Source of the DNA: Candidatus Hermodarchaeota archaeon
GTDB taxonomy: Archaea > Asgardarchaeota > Hermodarchaeia > Hermodarchaeales > Hermodarchaeaceae
DNA: 64,000 bases
Reading direction: 5' to 3'
NCBI GenBank assembly: GCA_016840065.1
Contig: JAEOTB010000054.1
Coordinates: forward strand, 16,483-80,482
In this document: positions 7,844-53,715 of the stretch, piece by piece
Layout: each line of letters opens with the position of its first letter
Position numbering within the stretch: position 1 is the first letter of the stretch
Made by a program: the position numbers and the translations under genes
Notes under the pieces: model-generated
What the model was told of the DNA's origin: nothing
The model's input: the letters and a program-made list of their open reading frames with translations, nothing else
The model's database searches: none

Positions 7844-9970
7844 CTATTCATCATTTGGTGTAACACGGAAGGCTTCGATGCATGAGAGTTTGGTCTGGGT
7901 GTGTAGGCGCTCTGGTATGAGCTGGGCTTGCCATAGTTTGTGAAGCCCCTGGTATATGATGACCTCAACTTCAGGATCTTTTAGCAGATTGTTTCGTTGG
8001 GCTTGACGTTCTAGGGTTTCTGCAAATTCTGGGTTCTCCTCCCAGGAGGTTTCTATTTTCTCTTTAAGGAATGTGAGGAAGTCAGGGTCGAGTTCGGTGA
8101 CTGGTGCTGTCCGCTGTTCTAGGTTACGGGGAACCCGTCGATCGAGATCCATTAAGAGAAGGGGAGGGATGGCGAAAAGGTGGGTTGTCTCGTTATCTCG
8201 CTGAAATCCTAGTAGGAAGAAGGGTATCTGTAGCTCAAGAACGGTATCGGTGGGCAGTAGTGCCTCTGGTTCCATGAGATATTCTTCAAATAACTCCTTT
8301 CTTCCCTGACAATGTTTAATCTGGTCCTGAATTGATTCTTGAATTTTGGTGGAGAGATTCTCCAATGTTTGTTGGCGTTCTTGGATTTCTTGGAGCTTCT
8401 GATCTCGTTCCTGGTCTAGGGCAACAAGTCGGGCTTTCTCTTGTCGAACCAGTTCTGCATAGTGGTTGCGGAGTCCAGATATTCTCTCTTCAGCGTTACG
8501 GTTCAATTCTTCAAGATCCTTCTCAATTTGCTGAATGAGCTTACGCCGATCCTTTATCTTATCCCGCAACTCACTGCTGAAGGATTTATCAAAAACATCG
8601 AGCACAGACCTCATATCATCCATGAATCGAGGAACATTGGGGTCAACCTCTGAATCTACTTTGATGAGTTGGGCAAGGGCTTCTCTTTGCTGTACAAAAT
8701 CCTCATCAACTGGCTCCAAGCTAAATCTTAGCCTTTCGACGAGTTTGGACTCTTCACCCTGCCACCACTCCTTCGCTTCGTCTATTGCTGAGTTTTCCTG
8801 TCGGGATAGCTCTTCTAGGTTCCGATTGATTTCCTGTACCAGATTCTCACGCCGTGTTTCATAGTAGGATTGCATTTCATCAAACTCTCTCTCAGCTCGC
8901 TTAGTCCAGTTTCGAACTTCTTCTTGGAAATGAATCCTGAACTTGTCCCACTGTCCTGCTGCAGAGACATGGCTCTGGATGGCTTCATCATAGAACCTTT
9001 CAGTTGCGTGGATACTCTGGGACTGAACTACCTTTGGGGGGAGAGGTGAAGCATATTCTACCTTTGAGCTTGCTAGGCTGCTCAGCTTCCTGATTAGCTT
9101 GGCAAATTTAGGAGTAACAAGATAGGTTTCGAAGGGGCTGGTTCGAGGGCTCGCGATGATGTCTTCTTGAAGTTTCTCAAGCCCTGCAAGGAACTCGAGG
9201 TTAGTTTCGACTTTGAGGAGGGCTTCGTATCTGCTGGTGGAGGGCATATTACCCCGTTCTACTGCATGCTGATTTAGGGCTAACCCATCGATAATCGCAA
9301 TGTTTCCATTTTGTTGACGCACAATCCATAGGGGCCAAAGAACCTTAGAGAAGAATTGATAGCATCCTTTTTTGAGTGGCTTGAGCTGTCTTGTATTCTG
9401 GCGGATGTCCTCAGCCAGGAGGTAAACAGCTGCTAGTTCTTGGTGGGTGTCTAGCACCAGAGAACTATCCATTTCGAGAGAGTGAATTGATGGCTCATCT
9501 AAGCTTTTTCCGTCTAGGGAAAAGGGAAGCGAGAATTGTGCATCCCCTTCTGTACGCCGACTCTCCGCAACAATTACTTCGATATCCTCTGTAAAGTCCC
9601 CAAAGGGGGCTGGATTACCGTCCCAATCAGTAAGCATAGTTTGATATTTCTCAACAAAGCGTCGCTTGATCTCGGTGAGGACCTTTTGTCCATCTTGTGG
9701 ATTATGGGCTTTATCGGTGGCGACGGCGAAGAGGATGTCATTTGACTTGTGAAGTAGGAAGTAGAAACTCACTTCGCCTAGATTGATGGTTTCGATGCCG
9801 CCATGGCCCAGTTCTTCGGCAAAGGCGTTTAAGGCGCTGTAGAACCCGCTAAATACCGCTTCGTCTACTCCTCGTCTGCTAAACGTCTTGTGGACCATTA
9901 CTTCACCGGTTGCTCGCTTGAGCACATAGACATCACGTATCATTTCGACCAACATCCGATAATGTTTCAA
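7844..9970 (-). CDS. Protein with N-terminal longin-like domain followed by a long coiled coil
   Basis: ORF 708 aa. N-terminus IRDVYVLKRATGEVMVHKTFSRRGVDEAVFSGFYSALNAFAEELG..INLGEVSFYFLLHKSNDILFAVATDKAHNPQDGQKVLTEIKRRFVEKY has a longin-type pattern; the middle is charged and heptad-rich. Confidence 0.6.
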   Translation of the reverse strand: MKHYRMLVEMIRDVYVLKRATGEVMVHKTFSRRGVDEAVFSGFYSALNAFAEELGHGGIETINLGEVSFYFLLHKSNDILFAVATDKAHNPQDGQKVLTEIKRRFVEKYQTMLTDWDGNPAPFGDFTEDIEVIVAESRRTEGDAQFSLPFSLDGKSLDEPSIHSLEMDSSLVLDTHQELAAVYLLAEDIRQNTRQLKPLKKGCYQFFSKVLWPLWIVRQQNGNIAIIDGLALNQHAVERGNMPSTSRYEALLKVETNLEFLAGLEKLQEDIIASPRTSPFETYLVTPKFAKLIRKLSSLASSKVEYASPLPPKVVQSQSIHATERFYDEAIQSHVSAAGQWDKFRIHFQEEVRNWTKRAEREFDEMQSYYETRRENLVQEINRNLEELSRQENSAIDEAKEWWQGEESKLVERLRFSLEPVDEDFVQQREALAQLIKVDSEVDPNVPRFMDDMRSVLDVFDKSFSSELRDKIKDRRKLIQQIEKDLEELNRNAEERISGLRNHYAELVRQEKARLVALDQERDQKLQEIQERQQTLENLSTKIQESIQDQIKHCQGRKELFEEYLMEPEALLPTDTVLELQIPFFLLGFQRDNETTHLFAIPPLLLMDLDRRVPRNLEQRTAPVTELDPDFLTFLKEKIETSWEENPEFAETLERQAQRNNLLKDPEVEVIIYQGLHKLWQAQLIPERLHTQTKLSCIEAFRVTPNDE

Positions 9971-20796: not shown

Positions 20797-21501
20797 TTGG
20801 GCAGGCAAGCGAGTCGCATTTCGCGATTAACCCGCAATCCTTTAGATCTGGTGCAAATGTTGGGAGAAAATCCACCTGAAAGAGAACCGGTAGAATCCTT
20901 GACAAACCAAGCCATGTCTGTAACTGAAGGAACGCCTATCTTCAAACTTGTTTTTGCGGGCGAAGGAGGAGTAGGTAAAACCTCTATTGTTAACCAATAC
21001 CTTAGCGGAGAACACAATGAGCCACCTATGACGGTGGGCTCAGAGTTCGCTTATCAAGAGGTGGAGTTGGAGAAACAGACAGTAGGTTTGAGTTTGTGGG
21101 ATTTTGGTGGAGAAATTCAATTCCGAGACCTCATCCCGGTCTTTTGCATGGGTGCTCACGGTGCTGTGGTCGTTTTCGACTTGAGCCGTTACTCCACTTT
21201 TCGACAGATTATTGCCTGGCTAGACCTCATTAAGCAGACTGAAGACCACATACCAATAATCCTTGTTGGTTCTAAGAGCGATCTTGCGAGCGGGGGCCCC
21301 TCTGAGGAGGAAATTCAGGCGATTCGCGAGAAATATAAAATCAGAGAGTACATTACAGTCTCATCGTTAACTGGAGAGAATATCTCCAAACTGTTTTTAC
21401 GGATTTCAGAGATACTCATCGAGGCCGTTAAGGATGGGGAAATAACTCCTGCCAAGTCGGTCAAGGTACCTTGTCAGGGAAATGAATCCGTCTGCGATTA
21501 A
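20797..21501 (+). CDS. Ras-like small GTPase
   Basis: P-loop GEGGVGKTS; switch II WDFGGEIQFRDLIP; G4-like GSKSDL; G5-like VSSLTGENI. The exact start codon is uncertain. Confidence 0.9.
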   Translation: MGRQASRISRLTRNPLDLVQMLGENPPEREPVESLTNQAMSVTEGTPIFKLVFAGEGGVGKTSIVNQYLSGEHNEPPMTVGSEFAYQEVELEKQTVGLSLWDFGGEIQFRDLIPVFCMGAHGAVVVFDLSRYSTFRQIIAWLDLIKQTEDHIPIILVGSKSDLASGGPSEEEIQAIREKYKIREYITVSSLTGENISKLFLRISEILIEAVKDGEITPAKSVKVPCQGNESVCD

Positions 21502-47708: not shown

Positions 47709-47876
47709 ATTCGCTATCTAAACACACCAAGACCCGAACTCAACTATCTCCTACCAAAGAATCACTAATAAAACATTCCCAAATATGGCAACAATGGAAT
47801 CTAATCACCTCTACACAAAATATATGAGGTTTTAGATAGAAATTCAATATGCAGAAACCCAGCGCCAGGAGCAACA

Positions 47877-48347
47877 ATGAGTATCATTAATCTCAACCCA
47901 GATGAAGTAACGATTCAGATTTTCTGTAAGACGTGTCAGACCGAGATAGAGGTTACTATACCTCGTCTTGTGATTGACAATGCCAAATCCTTTCCAATTG
48001 CACACCTCCACCTTCACGGGGACCCACCACATGGGTTAACACTCTATATTGATCGACATTATGGGGTTAGGGGAACCGAACTAAGCGAAGCAGTCACAAT
48101 CGAGAAACCAAAGGAAATTGCGCCCCTCACTAGCTTAGTATTGCTCCGGGTTCCAAAGCGACTTAAACAAACTGCGTTAGCTATGTTGAAGCTGCGGCAG
48201 GGTTCTGCCATAGAGGTTGCGAACATGACTGGTAAGGACCCAGCAGTCGAATCCCAATATCTGGGTCAGCTTTGGCGTATGGGCTACCTGATACGGACTA
48301 GAGTCCAACAACATTACCAGTATCAAATCGCGCAAGCAAATCCTTAA
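47877..48347 (+). CDS. CxxC/His-containing N-terminal domain plus C-terminal winged-HTH-like domain; first gene of putative ParA-containing operon
   Basis: IFCKTCQTEIEVTIPRLVIDNAKSFPIAHLHLHGDPPHGLTLYIDRHYGVRGTE; C-terminal LTSLVLLRVPKRLKQTALAMLKLRQGSAIEVANMTGKDPAVESQYLGQLWRMGYL. Confidence 0.7.
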   Translation: MSIINLNPDEVTIQIFCKTCQTEIEVTIPRLVIDNAKSFPIAHLHLHGDPPHGLTLYIDRHYGVRGTELSEAVTIEKPKEIAPLTSLVLLRVPKRLKQTALAMLKLRQGSAIEVANMTGKDPAVESQYLGQLWRMGYLIRTRVQQHYQYQIAQANP

Positions 48348-48392
48348 TACATCAATAAACTAAGGCTCTATTGGACTTAGGAGTAACCGATT

Positions 48393-49199
48393 ATGTCTGG
48401 AGCAACTATTCACAAATCCATCTCAATTCACTCCTTTAAGGGAGGAACCGGGAAATCAAATATCTCATCTAATACTGCTTTGACCTTGGCAAGGCGAGGA
48501 CACAGTGTTGTCCTTCTAGACTTTGACTTCCGGGCCCCAAGCTTATCCACTTTATTTCAGATGAAGGATGGAGTGAAGTATTGGTTAAATGATTGGCTGG
48601 ACCAGAAGTGTGAACTCACAGATGCATTGGCAGACCTGACCAGCAAGTTTGGTACAAAGGGCAAGTTTCAGGTCGGCTTTACCAACCCGAGCGGCGATGC
48701 CATCAATGAGATGACTCAACACGGCTTAGATGAGGCCTGGCAGGCAAGAGTTCTTCAGCTAATCCTTGACGCGAAGGATACGCTCTTTGAAAGGCATGGA
48801 GTGAATTTCATAGTTTTCGACACCAGCCCAGGTTTTGCCCTAAGCTCAATAAACGCCATTGTAGCATCAGATCATCTAATTCTGGTTCTGAAGGCTGATC
48901 AGCAGGACTTGGTAGGAACAGAGCAGCTAATCAAAGGAGTTTATGACCAGACTCTTGGGAAGCAACCAGAACTAATACTGAACAAGATGCCTGTTAGCAT
49001 TCTCAAGTCTAAGGAGAAGTATGAGAGGATTCTAGGTGAAATACAGCAACAATTAGGAGTCAGAATCGTCTCTGTCATCGCTTGTTTCTGTGAAGTCTTG
49101 GAGAACCTTGGTAGCCAACTCTTCGTGATAGCGAAACCTGAACATCCCTTTACAAAGAGTATCGAACATCTGGCAAGTCACTTTGAAAAAGTGAAGTAG
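48393..49199 (+). CDS. ParA/MinD-type P-loop ATPase
   Basis: ISIHSFKGGTGKSNISSNTALTLARRGHSVVLLDFDFRAPSLSTLF (deviant Walker A), NFIVFDTSPGFALSSINAIVASDHLILVLKADQQDLVGTEQLI. Confidence 0.93.
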   Translation: MSGATIHKSISIHSFKGGTGKSNISSNTALTLARRGHSVVLLDFDFRAPSLSTLFQMKDGVKYWLNDWLDQKCELTDALADLTSKFGTKGKFQVGFTNPSGDAINEMTQHGLDEAWQARVLQLILDAKDTLFERHGVNFIVFDTSPGFALSSINAIVASDHLILVLKADQQDLVGTEQLIKGVYDQTLGKQPELILNKMPVSILKSKEKYERILGEIQQQLGVRIVSVIACFCEVLENLGSQLFVIAKPEHPFTKSIEHLASHFEKVK

Positions 49200-49207
49200 A
49201 TAATGAG

Positions 49208-50179
49208 GTGATAATTATGGAACCCGAACTAAAAACTCTAGTAGATGTGTATGGTCGAGAGAACCTCCCCACTCTTTTCTGTTTATTGTTGTCCAGAGAA
49301 CCTATCTTAGTGACAGGACAAGCGGATAGCGAAGCACTATCAATCCCATTGAAGATATTCACGCCTCACCGACGGGTTGTAACTGATCTTGATGTAACGC
49401 AAATATCACCATCCACCATAGTTGAACGCCTAAAAAGGGTTCAAGCCCAGACTTCTGGGAATTACGTGGTTGTTTTCCAAAACATTCCATCGGATTCAAT
49501 ATCTGAATTTGTGGAGCATCTGGACAGCTCTGATTTTAATCACAGCTGGATAGGAAACATTTCAACTCCAGTTGAAGTTGACGCTGTCACCTTCAGCATT
49601 GAGACAAAGGAGTTTCAGGGTGCTAAAATGGCCCTACCAATCCTAACTTTCGCTCAGACATTGCTTGAAAAGGTATTATCAGGACAGCTCTCGCTGGAGA
49701 ATTTCACCCAAGAACTAAGTAACCAAATCAGCATGGCTGAACAGCTCTATAAAAGACTAACCAAGCTCAAAAAGGCCGAGGACCTTGTAGGATTTCTTGG
49801 TCTGGACCCTCAAACCACCAACTTCGATGATATGTCCACACTCTTCCAACAAGAATATGGACTGCCCCTTGCTGATATGCTTCACCAGAGACTGGTTAAA
49901 TTCACCCGCTTAACCAAACTTTCCCAAATCACCTCCTTGACTCTGCTTCGACTACCCCAGCATTTGAAACTAACTGCTATGGCGATGCTTAGGCTCAGGA
50001 AAGCAACAGCTGGTGAGGTCAGTAAGCTGACTACGAGAACTCGGGGGTTAGAATCAAGGTATCTAAACGACCTAGCTAACATGGGCTTTCTCTGGAAAGA
50101 ACAGGAAGGGCGCCGTGCCTGGTTCAGTATTAAATCAGCAGCACCAACTCCAGGAACTGCACCTGAACCTCCCTTCTAG
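49208..50179 (+). CDS. Unknown N-terminal domain plus C-terminal winged-HTH-like domain shared with 47877..48347
   Basis: C-terminal LTKLSQITSLTLLRLPQHLKLTAMAMLRLRKATAGEVSKLTTRTRGLESRYLNDLANMGFLWK aligns with the C-terminus of 47877..48347. Confidence 0.75.
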   Translation: MIIMEPELKTLVDVYGRENLPTLFCLLLSREPILVTGQADSEALSIPLKIFTPHRRVVTDLDVTQISPSTIVERLKRVQAQTSGNYVVVFQNIPSDSISEFVEHLDSSDFNHSWIGNISTPVEVDAVTFSIETKEFQGAKMALPILTFAQTLLEKVLSGQLSLENFTQELSNQISMAEQLYKRLTKLKKAEDLVGFLGLDPQTTNFDDMSTLFQQEYGLPLADMLHQRLVKFTRLTKLSQITSLTLLRLPQHLKLTAMAMLRLRKATAGEVSKLTTRTRGLESRYLNDLANMGFLWKEQEGRRAWFSIKSAAPTPGTAPEPPF

Positions 50180-50293
50180 GCGATTCTAATCACATCGAGT
50201 AAATACAAGAAATTACAACCTCATAGGCATTGACTATCCCCAACACCAAAAAGAATATACTATTCTAGTTGGTAAGTTTTTAGATAACAGAAG

Positions 50294-52798
50294 GTGAAAA
50301 AGATGGCAGAAGAGGAAACGGACAAAGAGTTACAACAAATAACCCTTCGGGAACGTAACCTAGAATTCTATGAAGCAGCCCAAGCTTGTTTCGCGTGGTA
50401 CCGAAAGAGTCGTGACCATAACTTTGCGGTCCGAGGATGCGAGAACCTCTCAGCGAGTGCGTGGCAAGCGAAGGATAAGGAAGAGATGGATCAGCGGCTT
50501 AGAGAGGTTGTCACGCAATGTCAAACTGTCGCTGCTAATCCGATGCTAAGTGACTCCCAGCGCGCCCAGCTTCAAGGAATGATTTTGGAGTCAGAAGGTT
50601 GGCTTTCCGATCCGCCCGACGCAGACAAGTTCATCGAAGCTGTCAAGGTGTATGTCGATTCAGGAAACGTCTATTACGCCCTACAACTCATTCCCAGTCT
50701 AATTCCCTTTGTCCCCATGGAAAGACAGATCTACTGGGCTGAGTATGGAAACCAACTCGCCGAACCTCTGCCAGATGATCACAAGAACATTTTCTTCATT
50801 CTCTTCTCTGACCCGCTGATAGCTTATGTTGACCTTGAGAAGAAAACGAAAATAGCCGAAGAAATCTTCAAGCGAGCTGAGGCCCTTTCTTCTTCTACTA
50901 CTGATAGCCACCTCAAGGAGTTAGCTATACTCAAGGCTCTGAATACAACCCACCAGTACGGAGTAGAGAGGGACCGAGGTCATGAGATTCGACAAGCAAA
51001 CTTGGATGGGCTTGAGCGAGCGCTTTCTAATATTCACTCCAATCTTTTACGTGGGATCATGCTACAAGTCCTAGGTCTTTCTTATTATCGGCTAGCTGAA
51101 AGAGAAAAGGTTCCTGACATGAGGAGTACTCTATTCCAAGAATCAAGTGGTTTTGCTCAGGAATCAGTTTCCACCTTGGAACGGACGCGAGCATACGGAG
51201 AGTTGTTTAACTCCTATATTCGAGCAGGTACAACTTTTCTTAGCATCGCAGAACTGGCCAAGGATATCGAAAAACGTAACGAACTATATGGATTAGGTAA
51301 GGAGTACTTGCAGAAGGGACGAACGATAGGGGCTAGTACTCAGCTAGTACAACTGCGTGCTAACGTCGCCATCAATCTAGGAGTGGTTATTGAACGCATG
51401 TTGTGGCTCGAGACCGACCTTGAACGTAGAAGGGAATTGCTTCAAGAGGCCTTTGATTTACAGTTAGAGGCTAAGGAGCTCGCTGAGCAAAGTCAGGGAT
51501 ACAGGATGGCAGGTTATGCTAGTATGAACGCTAGCGAGTTCTGTGGGCTGATTTCAGACTTGGTATCCAAGCTCAGTGAGAAACAGAAGTGGGCATCCCG
51601 CCAACTTGGGCTTGGTCGTCAGAGTATAGAATTTTTGAAGGAAACCAAGGATTGGCGAGGTCAAATGGGAGCATACACCAATGCAGCCTTCGCTTATGAC
51701 AAGTTGGCTGAAGTATCTCCCTCCCTTGAAGAGAAACAGAAGCATCTCCAAGAGATGCTTAAATTTGCCTTGCAGAGCCTTGAATTAGTTGAACAGGTCA
51801 ATGACCCCCTGTCAACAGCCTTCGCATATCAGAAAACAGCGGACGCCTACCGTAAGCTTGGAGTTATTTCCGGGGATGTTGAGAAACTAGTTCAAGCTAT
51901 CAAGTTCTACGAGCTATCCAAGGTAGATTACGAAAAGACTGGCGAGAGACACAAGCAGGGAGAAATCAACACCATTCTTGCTGATACGCTGTTGATTCGT
52001 TCAGGTCTTGATTCAAAGTTGCCTGCAGGAAAGCGTCAAGAAATACTTCAGCGATGTCAAAGCATCCATCGTACAACATCGGAATTGTACAACCAGCTTT
52101 TCCTCTTCCATAAAGCTGGTGAGAACCTCTGGAAAATTGGGCAGATACACCTTATCAAGGGTGAGCACAACGAAGCTCGGGAAGCTTTTACTGAAGTGAG
52201 AGACGCCTTCAACAGAATTGCGCGTATGGTACCTGCACTTGCTGAAGGATACAGTTTGTTCATTAAATTCTCCGAAGCCTACATCAGGATTCCTGACGGG
52301 TTAGCTAATTTCGCAAGGGGCGGCTATTCAGAGACTGAAAAAACCTTCAACGAAGTTGCTTCCGAGTTCACAAAGGAGGCAGAGAGTAGCCTCCGCCAAC
52401 TCCGTCAACTCCTAGAGGCTGCAAACTCTGTTTGCCAATTCGTAACCACTGGAAATTCTGGCCCAGCAGAAAAAGCGAAACAACAATTGAACCGCCTCAA
52501 ATCTACACTACAACCTGATGCATACACGCTACGTCTTCCATTCAGTATCCATGATTCGATAAGGAAATTACTGTCCTTCATCGAGGATCCAAGTCAAAGC
52601 TTTCCTCCACCCCTCATTGACCTTCCACTCGAGGAGAAGATGTTGACAATTGCCCAGACTGGACACTTGGTTCGTACAGCCATGAGTTTGTATCAAGCCG
52701 CGTCTCAGCATCAAGAAACCGAAGTCGCTGCGCCAACAGAGGAAACTATCCGCTCCTATGTCGCTCGAATAAGTCAAATGGTTGCCTCCCGAGCGTGA
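50294..52798 (+). CDS. Large alpha-helical (TPR/SNAP-like) repeat protein
   Basis: 834 aa, nearly all amphipathic helices with A..Y...A/Y.KLA/Y patterns (e.g. TAFAYQKTADAYRKLGVISGDVEKLVQAIKFYELSKVDYEKTGERHKQGEINTILAD). Confidence 0.75.
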   Translation: MKKMAEEETDKELQQITLRERNLEFYEAAQACFAWYRKSRDHNFAVRGCENLSASAWQAKDKEEMDQRLREVVTQCQTVAANPMLSDSQRAQLQGMILESEGWLSDPPDADKFIEAVKVYVDSGNVYYALQLIPSLIPFVPMERQIYWAEYGNQLAEPLPDDHKNIFFILFSDPLIAYVDLEKKTKIAEEIFKRAEALSSSTTDSHLKELAILKALNTTHQYGVERDRGHEIRQANLDGLERALSNIHSNLLRGIMLQVLGLSYYRLAEREKVPDMRSTLFQESSGFAQESVSTLERTRAYGELFNSYIRAGTTFLSIAELAKDIEKRNELYGLGKEYLQKGRTIGASTQLVQLRANVAINLGVVIERMLWLETDLERRRELLQEAFDLQLEAKELAEQSQGYRMAGYASMNASEFCGLISDLVSKLSEKQKWASRQLGLGRQSIEFLKETKDWRGQMGAYTNAAFAYDKLAEVSPSLEEKQKHLQEMLKFALQSLELVEQVNDPLSTAFAYQKTADAYRKLGVISGDVEKLVQAIKFYELSKVDYEKTGERHKQGEINTILADTLLIRSGLDSKLPAGKRQEILQRCQSIHRTTSELYNQLFLFHKAGENLWKIGQIHLIKGEHNEAREAFTEVRDAFNRIARMVPALAEGYSLFIKFSEAYIRIPDGLANFARGGYSETEKTFNEVASEFTKEAESSLRQLRQLLEAANSVCQFVTTGNSGPAEKAKQQLNRLKSTLQPDAYTLRLPFSIHDSIRKLLSFIEDPSQSFPPPLIDLPLEEKMLTIAQTGHLVRTAMSLYQAASQHQETEVAAPTEETIRSYVARISQMVASRA

Positions 52799-52824
52799 CC
52801 CACAATCCAGGTTAGTGAAATAGA

Positions 52825-53715
52825 ATGACGCGCACTATCACACTGAGTTATCTTGTTGCCTTTAGTTTGGGTGTCATTTCCTTTGTCCTGTTAATGACAT
52901 TCCTTGGTTGGGATTTGATTGCGTTCACCAACCCAACCTTATTGTTCATACCTGCTCTCTGCTCTGGTATCGTCATGAAGGTTCTCGGCGGATTAGGTAT
53001 AGCGATTAACTACGCGGTGTTTTGTCAGTTAGTCTTTAGGACTTTCTCAGGCTCTATGAAAGGGCGGAAGGGACGAGTAAGGACCTTTAAGGTGATATTA
53101 TTGGTCGTTGCCTTTGTGCTTTGTGGGTATGCGTTGTATCGCATCATAGGTGCCTTCTTCCTGTCGCAGCCTCAGACCCTCTTTGATCTTATACTGAATA
53201 TTTACGGAGCAGTATCCCTGATGGTCTGGATTTACATTCTCCCAGCAATTCGGGGCAGCTATGGTGAAGGCGACAAGAGTGTGCTGGATCGCATTCGTGC
53301 GAAGATAGGGAATGCCCGGTTTTCTCTGTGGAAAGGATACCGTTATCGAATTCGTCGAGATTATGGCACAGTACAGGCAGCTGAATATGAACGTCTACAG
53401 GGGAGCCTTGATGATGTCCGTGGGCAGTTGAGTGGCCTCCTGTTGCTTCCTCTCGCGTTGATTCTGCTCTTATTCCCTCCGCTAATAGGTGTGGTTCTTG
53501 TTCTTTGGGTTAGGCTTTTCTCGTTGAAGAAGAGGCCTCTAATGAAAGGAGAACGGCTCATCCTTGGGATTGTTAGTGCCAGTATCTTGATGATGAGTCT
53601 TTTCATCAATCTATTCATGAGTATGCCCTCGATGACCTCATATCTTGATTTAACCTATGGTTTTGCGATTCTTGCAGGTGTTTTCCTTCTGGCTTACCTC
53701 GTCCTCAAATCCTAG
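52825..53715 (+). CDS. Multi-TM membrane protein, last gene of putative operon
   Basis: 296 aa, about seven hydrophobic segments, 26-nt gap from previous gene. Confidence 0.75.
   Translation: MTRTITLSYLVAFSLGVISFVLLMTFLGWDLIAFTNPTLLFIPALCSGIVMKVLGGLGIAINYAVFCQLVFRTFSGSMKGRKGRVRTFKVILLVVAFVLCGYALYRIIGAFFLSQPQTLFDLILNIYGAVSLMVWIYILPAIRGSYGEGDKSVLDRIRAKIGNARFSLWKGYRYRIRRDYGTVQAAEYERLQGSLDDVRGQLSGLLLLPLALILLLFPPLIGVVLVLWVRLFSLKKRPLMKGERLILGIVSASILMMSLFINLFMSMPSMTSYLDLTYGFAILAGVFLLAYLVLKS

Follow-up and report, generated by a model that had tools for sequence, protein, structure and literature searches.

The window analysed here, a stretch of 64,000 nt from a draft Hermodarchaeota genome (2.59 Mb in 131 contigs, labelled G000), has its nearest named relatives among Hermodarchaeota records, with 90% identity to YT_063 and 66% to Hermodarchaeum yapensis. 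Between positions 47877 and 53715, five open reading frames on the plus strand bear out the original prediction of a same-strand gene set with gaps of 45, 8, 114 and 26 nt (Table 1). In order, they encode a winged-helix (wHTH) adaptor, H1; a ParA/MinD-type ATPase; a second wHTH adaptor, H3; a helical-repeat protein resembling TPR proteins; and a membrane protein. The H3 reading frame spans 49208–50179 (323 aa), and the gene probably starts at ATG 49217, which is conserved in the sister genome G001 and would widen the preceding gap from 8 to 17 nt.

Table 1. Features of the five-gene locus and its upstream region, in window coordinates
Feature	Position	Strand	Basis
AT-rich promoter-like block CACAAAATATATGAGG upstream of H1	47812..47831	+	Upstream alignment, 8 family genomes
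H1 adaptor, 156 aa, CxxC-HGxPxH domain and basic wHTH	47877..48347	+	ORF, orthologues, AF2
H1 N-terminal domain, CxxC ... HGxPxH, putative metal-binding	47901..48113	+	Domain alignment, profile matches
H1 winged helix, AspA-like, strongly basic	48126..48329	+	AF2, PDB profile, Foldseek, charge
ParA/MinD-type ATPase, clade A (CxC type), 268 aa	48393..49199	+	Pfam, tree, invariant residues
Deviant Walker A FKGGTGKS, signature lysine K16	48435..48458	+	Sequence, alignments
C231-x-C233 motif, ACFC in window	49083..49091	+	Invariance among clade-A ATPases
H3 second adaptor, orphan N-terminal head and basic wHTH (probable start)	49217..50179	+	wHTH in common with H1
TPR-like helical-repeat protein, 834 aa	50294..52798	+	Weak TPR matches in Pfam; specific to the window's family
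Membrane protein, 296 aa, about 7 predicted TM segments	52825..53715	+	Hydropathy

Among the neighbourhoods fetched, G001 has all five genes in identical order (H1–ATPase–H3–TPR–membrane protein), and the arrangement in the window is therefore not due to chance; in G002 the contig ends inside the ATPase gene. Five genomes of the sister genus have H1–ATPase–TPR, with H3 and the membrane gene not adjoining the ATPase; a contig end cuts the TPR gene short in G004 and G007, and pyrB comes after it in G006, G003 and G005. The five-gene set as a whole is a feature of one genus (g1) only, and what stays constant beyond it is a core formed by the wHTH protein and the ATPase. The idea of five genes forming one conserved system is not supported by this comparison, given the sister genus and a TPR protein found in a single family.

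The two distal genes are of different standing. The TPR protein, which has no PDB relative at E values up to 0.001, is probably a family-level addition, since it is confined to 7 of 228 Asgard genomes, all from the window's family, where it adjoins the ATPase or lies on truncated contigs. Homologues of the membrane protein are patchy across the 29 relatives searched, lie on contigs other than that of the ATPase outside genus g1, and were not found in the sister genus, so this gene is probably a loose passenger and the membrane anchor of the original prediction becomes a weak proposal. G001 also has, some 4 kb downstream from its operon, a second, truncated copy of the gene for the membrane protein (L033, 13173–13559). 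Elsewhere in the window are a 708-aa protein with an N-terminal longin-like domain (7844–9970, minus strand; E = 2e-12 with a longin profile built here) and a Ras-like small GTPase with an N-terminal extension (20797–21501; Pfam Ras, E = 8e-30).

The ATPase and its wHTH partner across archaea

The ATPase contains the predicted deviant Walker A motif, which reads HSFKGGTGKS with K16 as the signature lysine. K16, K21, D45 and D143 are conserved in alignments, leaving the catalytic residues intact, and Pfam returns AAA_31, ParA and CbiA matches (PF13614, E = 8e-15, 55.6 bits against a cut-off of 27). Motif, signature lysine, switch aspartates and Pfam matches together make it a member of the ParA/MinD group of SIMIBI ATPases. 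Its nearest solved relatives are MinD and FlhG/FleN (1hyq, 4v03 and FleN), with profile scores of 78.9, 70.5 and 64.6 bits for MinD, FlhG and Soj versus 46.5 bits for ParA of pNOB8; SegA is not among the solved relatives listed at E values up to 1e-8.

The ATPase falls far below every NCBIfam equivalog cut-off that we looked at. The two MinD models, TIGR01968 and TIGR01969, give 54.6 versus 212.9 and 53 versus 201.75 bits, the ParA model NF041546 gives 46 versus 180 bits, and the model of KGGVGR-motif AAA ATPases, NF047398, gives 62.2 versus 90 bits, the window motif being KGGTGKS. The predicted lack of a ParB or septum-site partner also holds, with no ParB domain in the operon and no MinC or MinE among the window neighbours in Pfam searches. 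On inspection, the ATPase has no extra C-terminal membrane-targeting tail.

We gathered about 120 loci by ATPase similarity and never by the wHTH; iterated profiles run over them place a wHTH homologue beside most of the closer ATPases. In a maximum-likelihood tree of 124 ATPase rows (quick search, SH-aLRT), the window's ATPase falls in clade A (55 rows, support 94), sister to clade B (51 rows, support 99). A wHTH gene adjoins the ATPase in 47 of the 55 rows of clade A versus 3 of 51 in clade B. It usually lies directly upstream, with a 4-nt overlap in many Bathyarchaeia. The clade-A rows without an adjacent wHTH gene are six from Nitrososphaeria, one from a Bathyarchaeon and G012:C176, where the ATPase adjoins an H3-type gene that runs off the contig. 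Adjacency recurs in 27 of the 28 best-matching Asgard loci, with H1 orthologues next to the ATPase in all 8 genomes of the window's family, and in 30/30 best loci of a further Bathyarchaeia-class sample, a 151-genome draw from the class of one Bathyarchaeial genome whose species partly overlap the earlier set. Of the class genomes, 77 have the pair, most of them in one copy.

Conserved over many archaeal lineages, the wHTH protein is thus the dedicated partner of the ATPase, and the breadth of the pairing makes the window operon look like a lineage-specific version of an ancient system. In the neighbourhood survey of ATPase homologues suggested in the original prediction, the wHTH partner is kept widely whereas H3, the TPR protein and the membrane gene are not; the proposed coupling of a SIMIBI ATPase to two wHTH adaptors with different N-termini and a TPR scaffold is supported.

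Clade A is also marked by a CxC motif near the C-terminus of the ATPase, present in 54/55 rows and in none of the 51 rows of clade B. Most clade-A ATPases have it as PC[FYL]C, and both cysteines are invariant in an alignment of 13 diverse members.

Several other settings were seen in clade B. The window genome encodes a paralogue of this clade (G000:C80, locus L052) next to a protein of about 420 aa with longin-like and wHTH similarity, and 17 Asgard rows of this group (related loci L046–L071) form one clade. In Thermoprotei, clade-B ATPases lie in archaellum and chemotaxis operons, adjoining a small coiled-coil protein (L119, L121 and L123). Those of Cyanobacteria (L126–L150) come after a membrane sensor-like protein, and those of Chloroflexi (L145 and L151) are near a nucleotide cyclase, a cNMP-binding protein and a PrsW-type protease; the cyanobacterial sensor and the Chloroflexi cNMP protein have similar coiled-coil ends.

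Adaptor heads, winged helices and upstream DNA

The C-terminal winged helix predicted for the proteins on both sides of the ATPase is indeed common to H1 and H3, with 38% identity over 84 aa (E = 4e-17). AlphaFold2 modelling of the adaptors, another suggested check, succeeded for the wHTH of H1 (pLDDT about 90–96) and not for the N-terminal domains, with low confidence in H1 and a pLDDT of 45 for the H3 head, modelled from two sequences. The H1 wHTH is strongly basic, with a charge of +8 over the final 80 aa and a pI of 10.3; Hermodarchaeia wHTHs carry +6 to +14 in their last 80 residues, and most others are strongly basic too. The wHTHs of most longin-type adaptors, in several Asgard lineages, are acidic, so DNA binding would not be universal.

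The heads joined to this wHTH are of four types: coiled coil, longin-like, CxxC-HGxPxH (H1) and orphan (H3). Short coiled-coil-looking heads occur in Bathyarchaeia, Methanomethylicota and some Asgards. Longin-like heads occur at several Asgard loci, with weak matches to Fuz_longin_1 (E = 6.5e-4) and, in the PDB, to the SRX domain (E = 0.0064) and MON1 (E = 0.036); profile–profile comparison shows that these adaptors have their wHTH in common with H1 (E = 3.4e-9). Some clade members and clade-B paralogues thereby resemble Asgard longin/roadblock adaptors, but are coupled to a ParA/MinD-type ATPase rather than to a Ras-like GTPase.

Of the 228 Asgard genomes, 175 contain matches to the H1 profile, mostly to its CxxC-HGxPxH domain. 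C17, C20 and H47 are invariant in an alignment of 20 diverse members, and the domain, which has no convincing Pfam or PDB family match, may bind metal. On inspection, the proteins that contain it (loci L161–L182) combine it variously with TPR-like, longin-like, wHTH or coiled-coil regions.

The H3 head has no similarity to longin-type or CxxC-HGxPxH proteins in profile comparison. Searched with two sequences over the 228 Asgard genomes, it was found in genus g1 and as one marginal match in G176. A full-length relative of H3 directly follows the ATPase in G187 (E = 4e-9), and G012 has a related truncated gene.

The closest PDB relative of the window's wHTH, by both sequence and fold, is the centromere binder AspA of pNOB8, although the match is modest. 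AspA gives the best match of the wHTH profile in the PDB (E = 0.0024), and at 29.5 bits it is the top scorer among 1830 control ORFs if members of the family itself are left out. Foldseek with the H1 model also places AspA first (E = 3.7e-3), ArsR/MarR folds scoring almost as well. AspA recognizes a 23-bp palindrome that lies upstream of the gene encoding it, and does not itself bind ParA; ParB bridges the two (PMC5120986).

The AspA–ParB–ParA system of pNOB8 (NC_006493) and the pair described here are alike in having a small wHTH gene upstream of, and overlapping, a gene for a ParA/MinD-family ATPase, and in a palindrome just upstream of the wHTH gene, which is seen in the Bathyarchaeia homologues, none having been found upstream of H1 in the window. 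The present system differs in being chromosomal, in having a MinD-like ATPase, in the extra N-terminal heads of its wHTH proteins and in having no ParB/CenpA-like protein; in the window operon, neither the open reading frames nor Pfam reveal a ParB adaptor with a CenpA-like domain between the wHTH and ATPase genes. With no ParB and a MinD-like ATPase, the window system is therefore not AspA–ParBA.

The Bathyarchaeial element is a 21-bp near-palindrome, GTTTCGTAAG-A-CTTAATAAAC. Over 853 kb of fetched loci it occurs 24 times, in every case immediately upstream of the pair; we estimate that about 0.2 occurrences would be expected in random sequence. It has an HTH_45 gene on one side and the wHTH gene on the other (GTTTCGTAAGACTTAATAAAC; conserved form TGTTTCGTAAGACTTAATAAAC; L078–L117 and L200–L229), overlaps promoter-like sequence, and recurs in 29/30 loci of the further Bathyarchaeia-class sample, the thirtieth being cut by a contig end. 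Each of 12 genomes has one strong site, with 0–1 mismatch in 11 of them and 2 in the other; further matches number six, each with 2 mismatches, versus 3 in a backwards control. Part of this conservation reflects common ancestry, and a different regulator could be the binder, for instance the product of the upstream HTH_45 gene. An origin-proximal location of the Bathyarchaeial pair was not found in three one-contig genomes, in which it is not near Orc1/Cdc6 genes.

In the window, an upstream alignment and a simple arm search found no comparable palindrome before H1. The upstream regions of H1 across the family have only a TATA-like block in common, a putative promoter element whose counterpart in the sister genus is ACAGAAAATGTTTAAGAG, with one match per genome in 4/5 genomes.

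A candidate DNA-anchored module and its alternatives

We favour, at an even level of confidence, a reading of the core pair as a DNA-anchored positioning or partition module of ParA/MinD type in which the wHTH protein serves as adaptor. The module would comprise the clade-A ATPase with its CxC motif and the dedicated wHTH partner, whose basic, AspA-like end most likely binds DNA; in Bathyarchaeia its site would be the single palindrome beside its own gene. The variable N-terminal head may touch the ATPase or a cargo. As in ParA/MinD systems, ATPase dimers carrying ATP would capture the adaptor complex and then let it go, with the adaptor activating the ATPase, and this cycling could position or segregate DNA or a DNA-linked cargo. 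The Hermodarchaeial version would use the CxxC-HGxPxH head of H1 and the TPR scaffold, to which genus g1 would add H3 as a second adaptor. Pure partition is disfavoured by the lack of ParB, by an ATPase nearer to MinD and FlhG than to pNOB8 ParA, and by a location that is not near Orc1/Cdc6 genes in the three Bathyarchaeia genomes.

Comparison with other characterized systems sets the pair apart. MinD and FlhG/FleN, its nearest solved ATPase relatives, share the intact deviant Walker A, but the present ATPase scores far below the NCBIfam MinD cut-offs and has, instead of MinC, MinE, FlhF or FleQ, a wHTH partner and a CxC motif. SegAB, described from Sulfolobales, is likewise a minimal archaeal ATPase with a DNA-binding partner; here, however, the partner is a wHTH according to AlphaFold2, with no SegB-type match in Pfam or NCBIfam.

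The main rival is a regulatory role like that of FleN/FlhG, in which the ATPase would bind the wHTH protein and control transcription-factor activity, for example for surface structures, with the palindrome as an autoregulatory operator. We consider this less likely than the DNA-anchored reading. The ATPase does have MinD, FlhG and FleN among its closest relatives of solved structure, sister clade B includes members in the Thermoprotei operons for archaellum and chemotaxis, and an operator would fit a near-palindrome that overlaps promoter-like sequence. A 2016 survey of archaeal pili, moreover, linked FleN/MinD-like ATPases of arCOG00589 to type IV pili (T4P) and to an HxlR-type wHTH, arCOG01057 (PMC4858521). 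This earlier genomic link between a wHTH regulator and a MinD-like ATPase makes the bare association less new, although it was reported for pilus-associated ATPases, which may or may not be the present clade. No regulon is visible, however, because each genome has a single strong palindrome site; no pilus, archaellum or motility gene was recognised adjoining the clade-A loci read; and a TPR scaffold and longin heads would be unusual for a transcription switch.

Positioning in the cytoplasm or at a membrane, with the wHTH acting as a protein-interaction module as it does in ESCRT-II, the heads (longin, CxxC-HGxPxH and H3) and the TPR protein binding cargo and the ATPase behaving like MinD, strikes us as improbable. 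It would account for the longin-like heads with acidic wHTHs in several Asgard families, for the TPR protein in the operon and for the membrane gene in genus g1, but sits poorly with the strongly basic, AspA-like wHTHs of the window, with an ATPase that has no C-terminal membrane-targeting tail and with a membrane protein that is unlinked elsewhere. The membrane targeting entertained in the original prediction loses ground for the same lack of a tail, and because the AspA likeness and the upstream palindrome in Bathyarchaeia point to DNA rather than to membranes. Targeting of membrane proteins as by Get3/ArsA, with the helical-repeat protein as co-factor and the membrane protein as receptor, is extremely improbable and largely refuted by neighbourhood and domain size: the combination of a SIMIBI ATPase, a helical-repeat protein and a membrane protein is superficially similar and there is a weak ArsA Pfam match, but this match is limited to the P-loop, the GET3/ArsA NCBIfam score of 27.9 bits lies under the cut-off of 135, conservation of the ATPase does not extend to the TPR and membrane genes, and 268 aa leave no room for the client-binding insert of Get3.

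A wider form of the favoured DNA-anchored reading, which we offer tentatively and hold to be possible rather than probable, is that the pair constitutes a widespread chromosomal system for positioning or segregating DNA in archaea, built from a CxC MinD-like ATPase and an AspA-like wHTH, with a single centromere-like site in Bathyarchaeia. In Asgard archaea, swapped heads (longin-like and CxxC-HGxPxH) and a TPR scaffold would have turned a DNA-partition device into one that positions cargo. We found no description of a wHTH–CxC-ATPase system in our searches of open-licence papers, and to our knowledge DNA segregation and structure placement in Asgard, Bathyarchaeial and related archaea are largely unknown. 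A conserved ATPase–adaptor pair with a short candidate DNA site offers a concrete candidate for these processes. Longin-like domains are related to those of eukaryotic trafficking regulators, and the exchange of heads that include them in Asgard archaea would connect a positioning ATPase of prokaryotes with eukaryote-like modules. A second result in its own right is the CxxC-HGxPxH domain, which belongs to no Pfam family and is present in most Asgard genomes.
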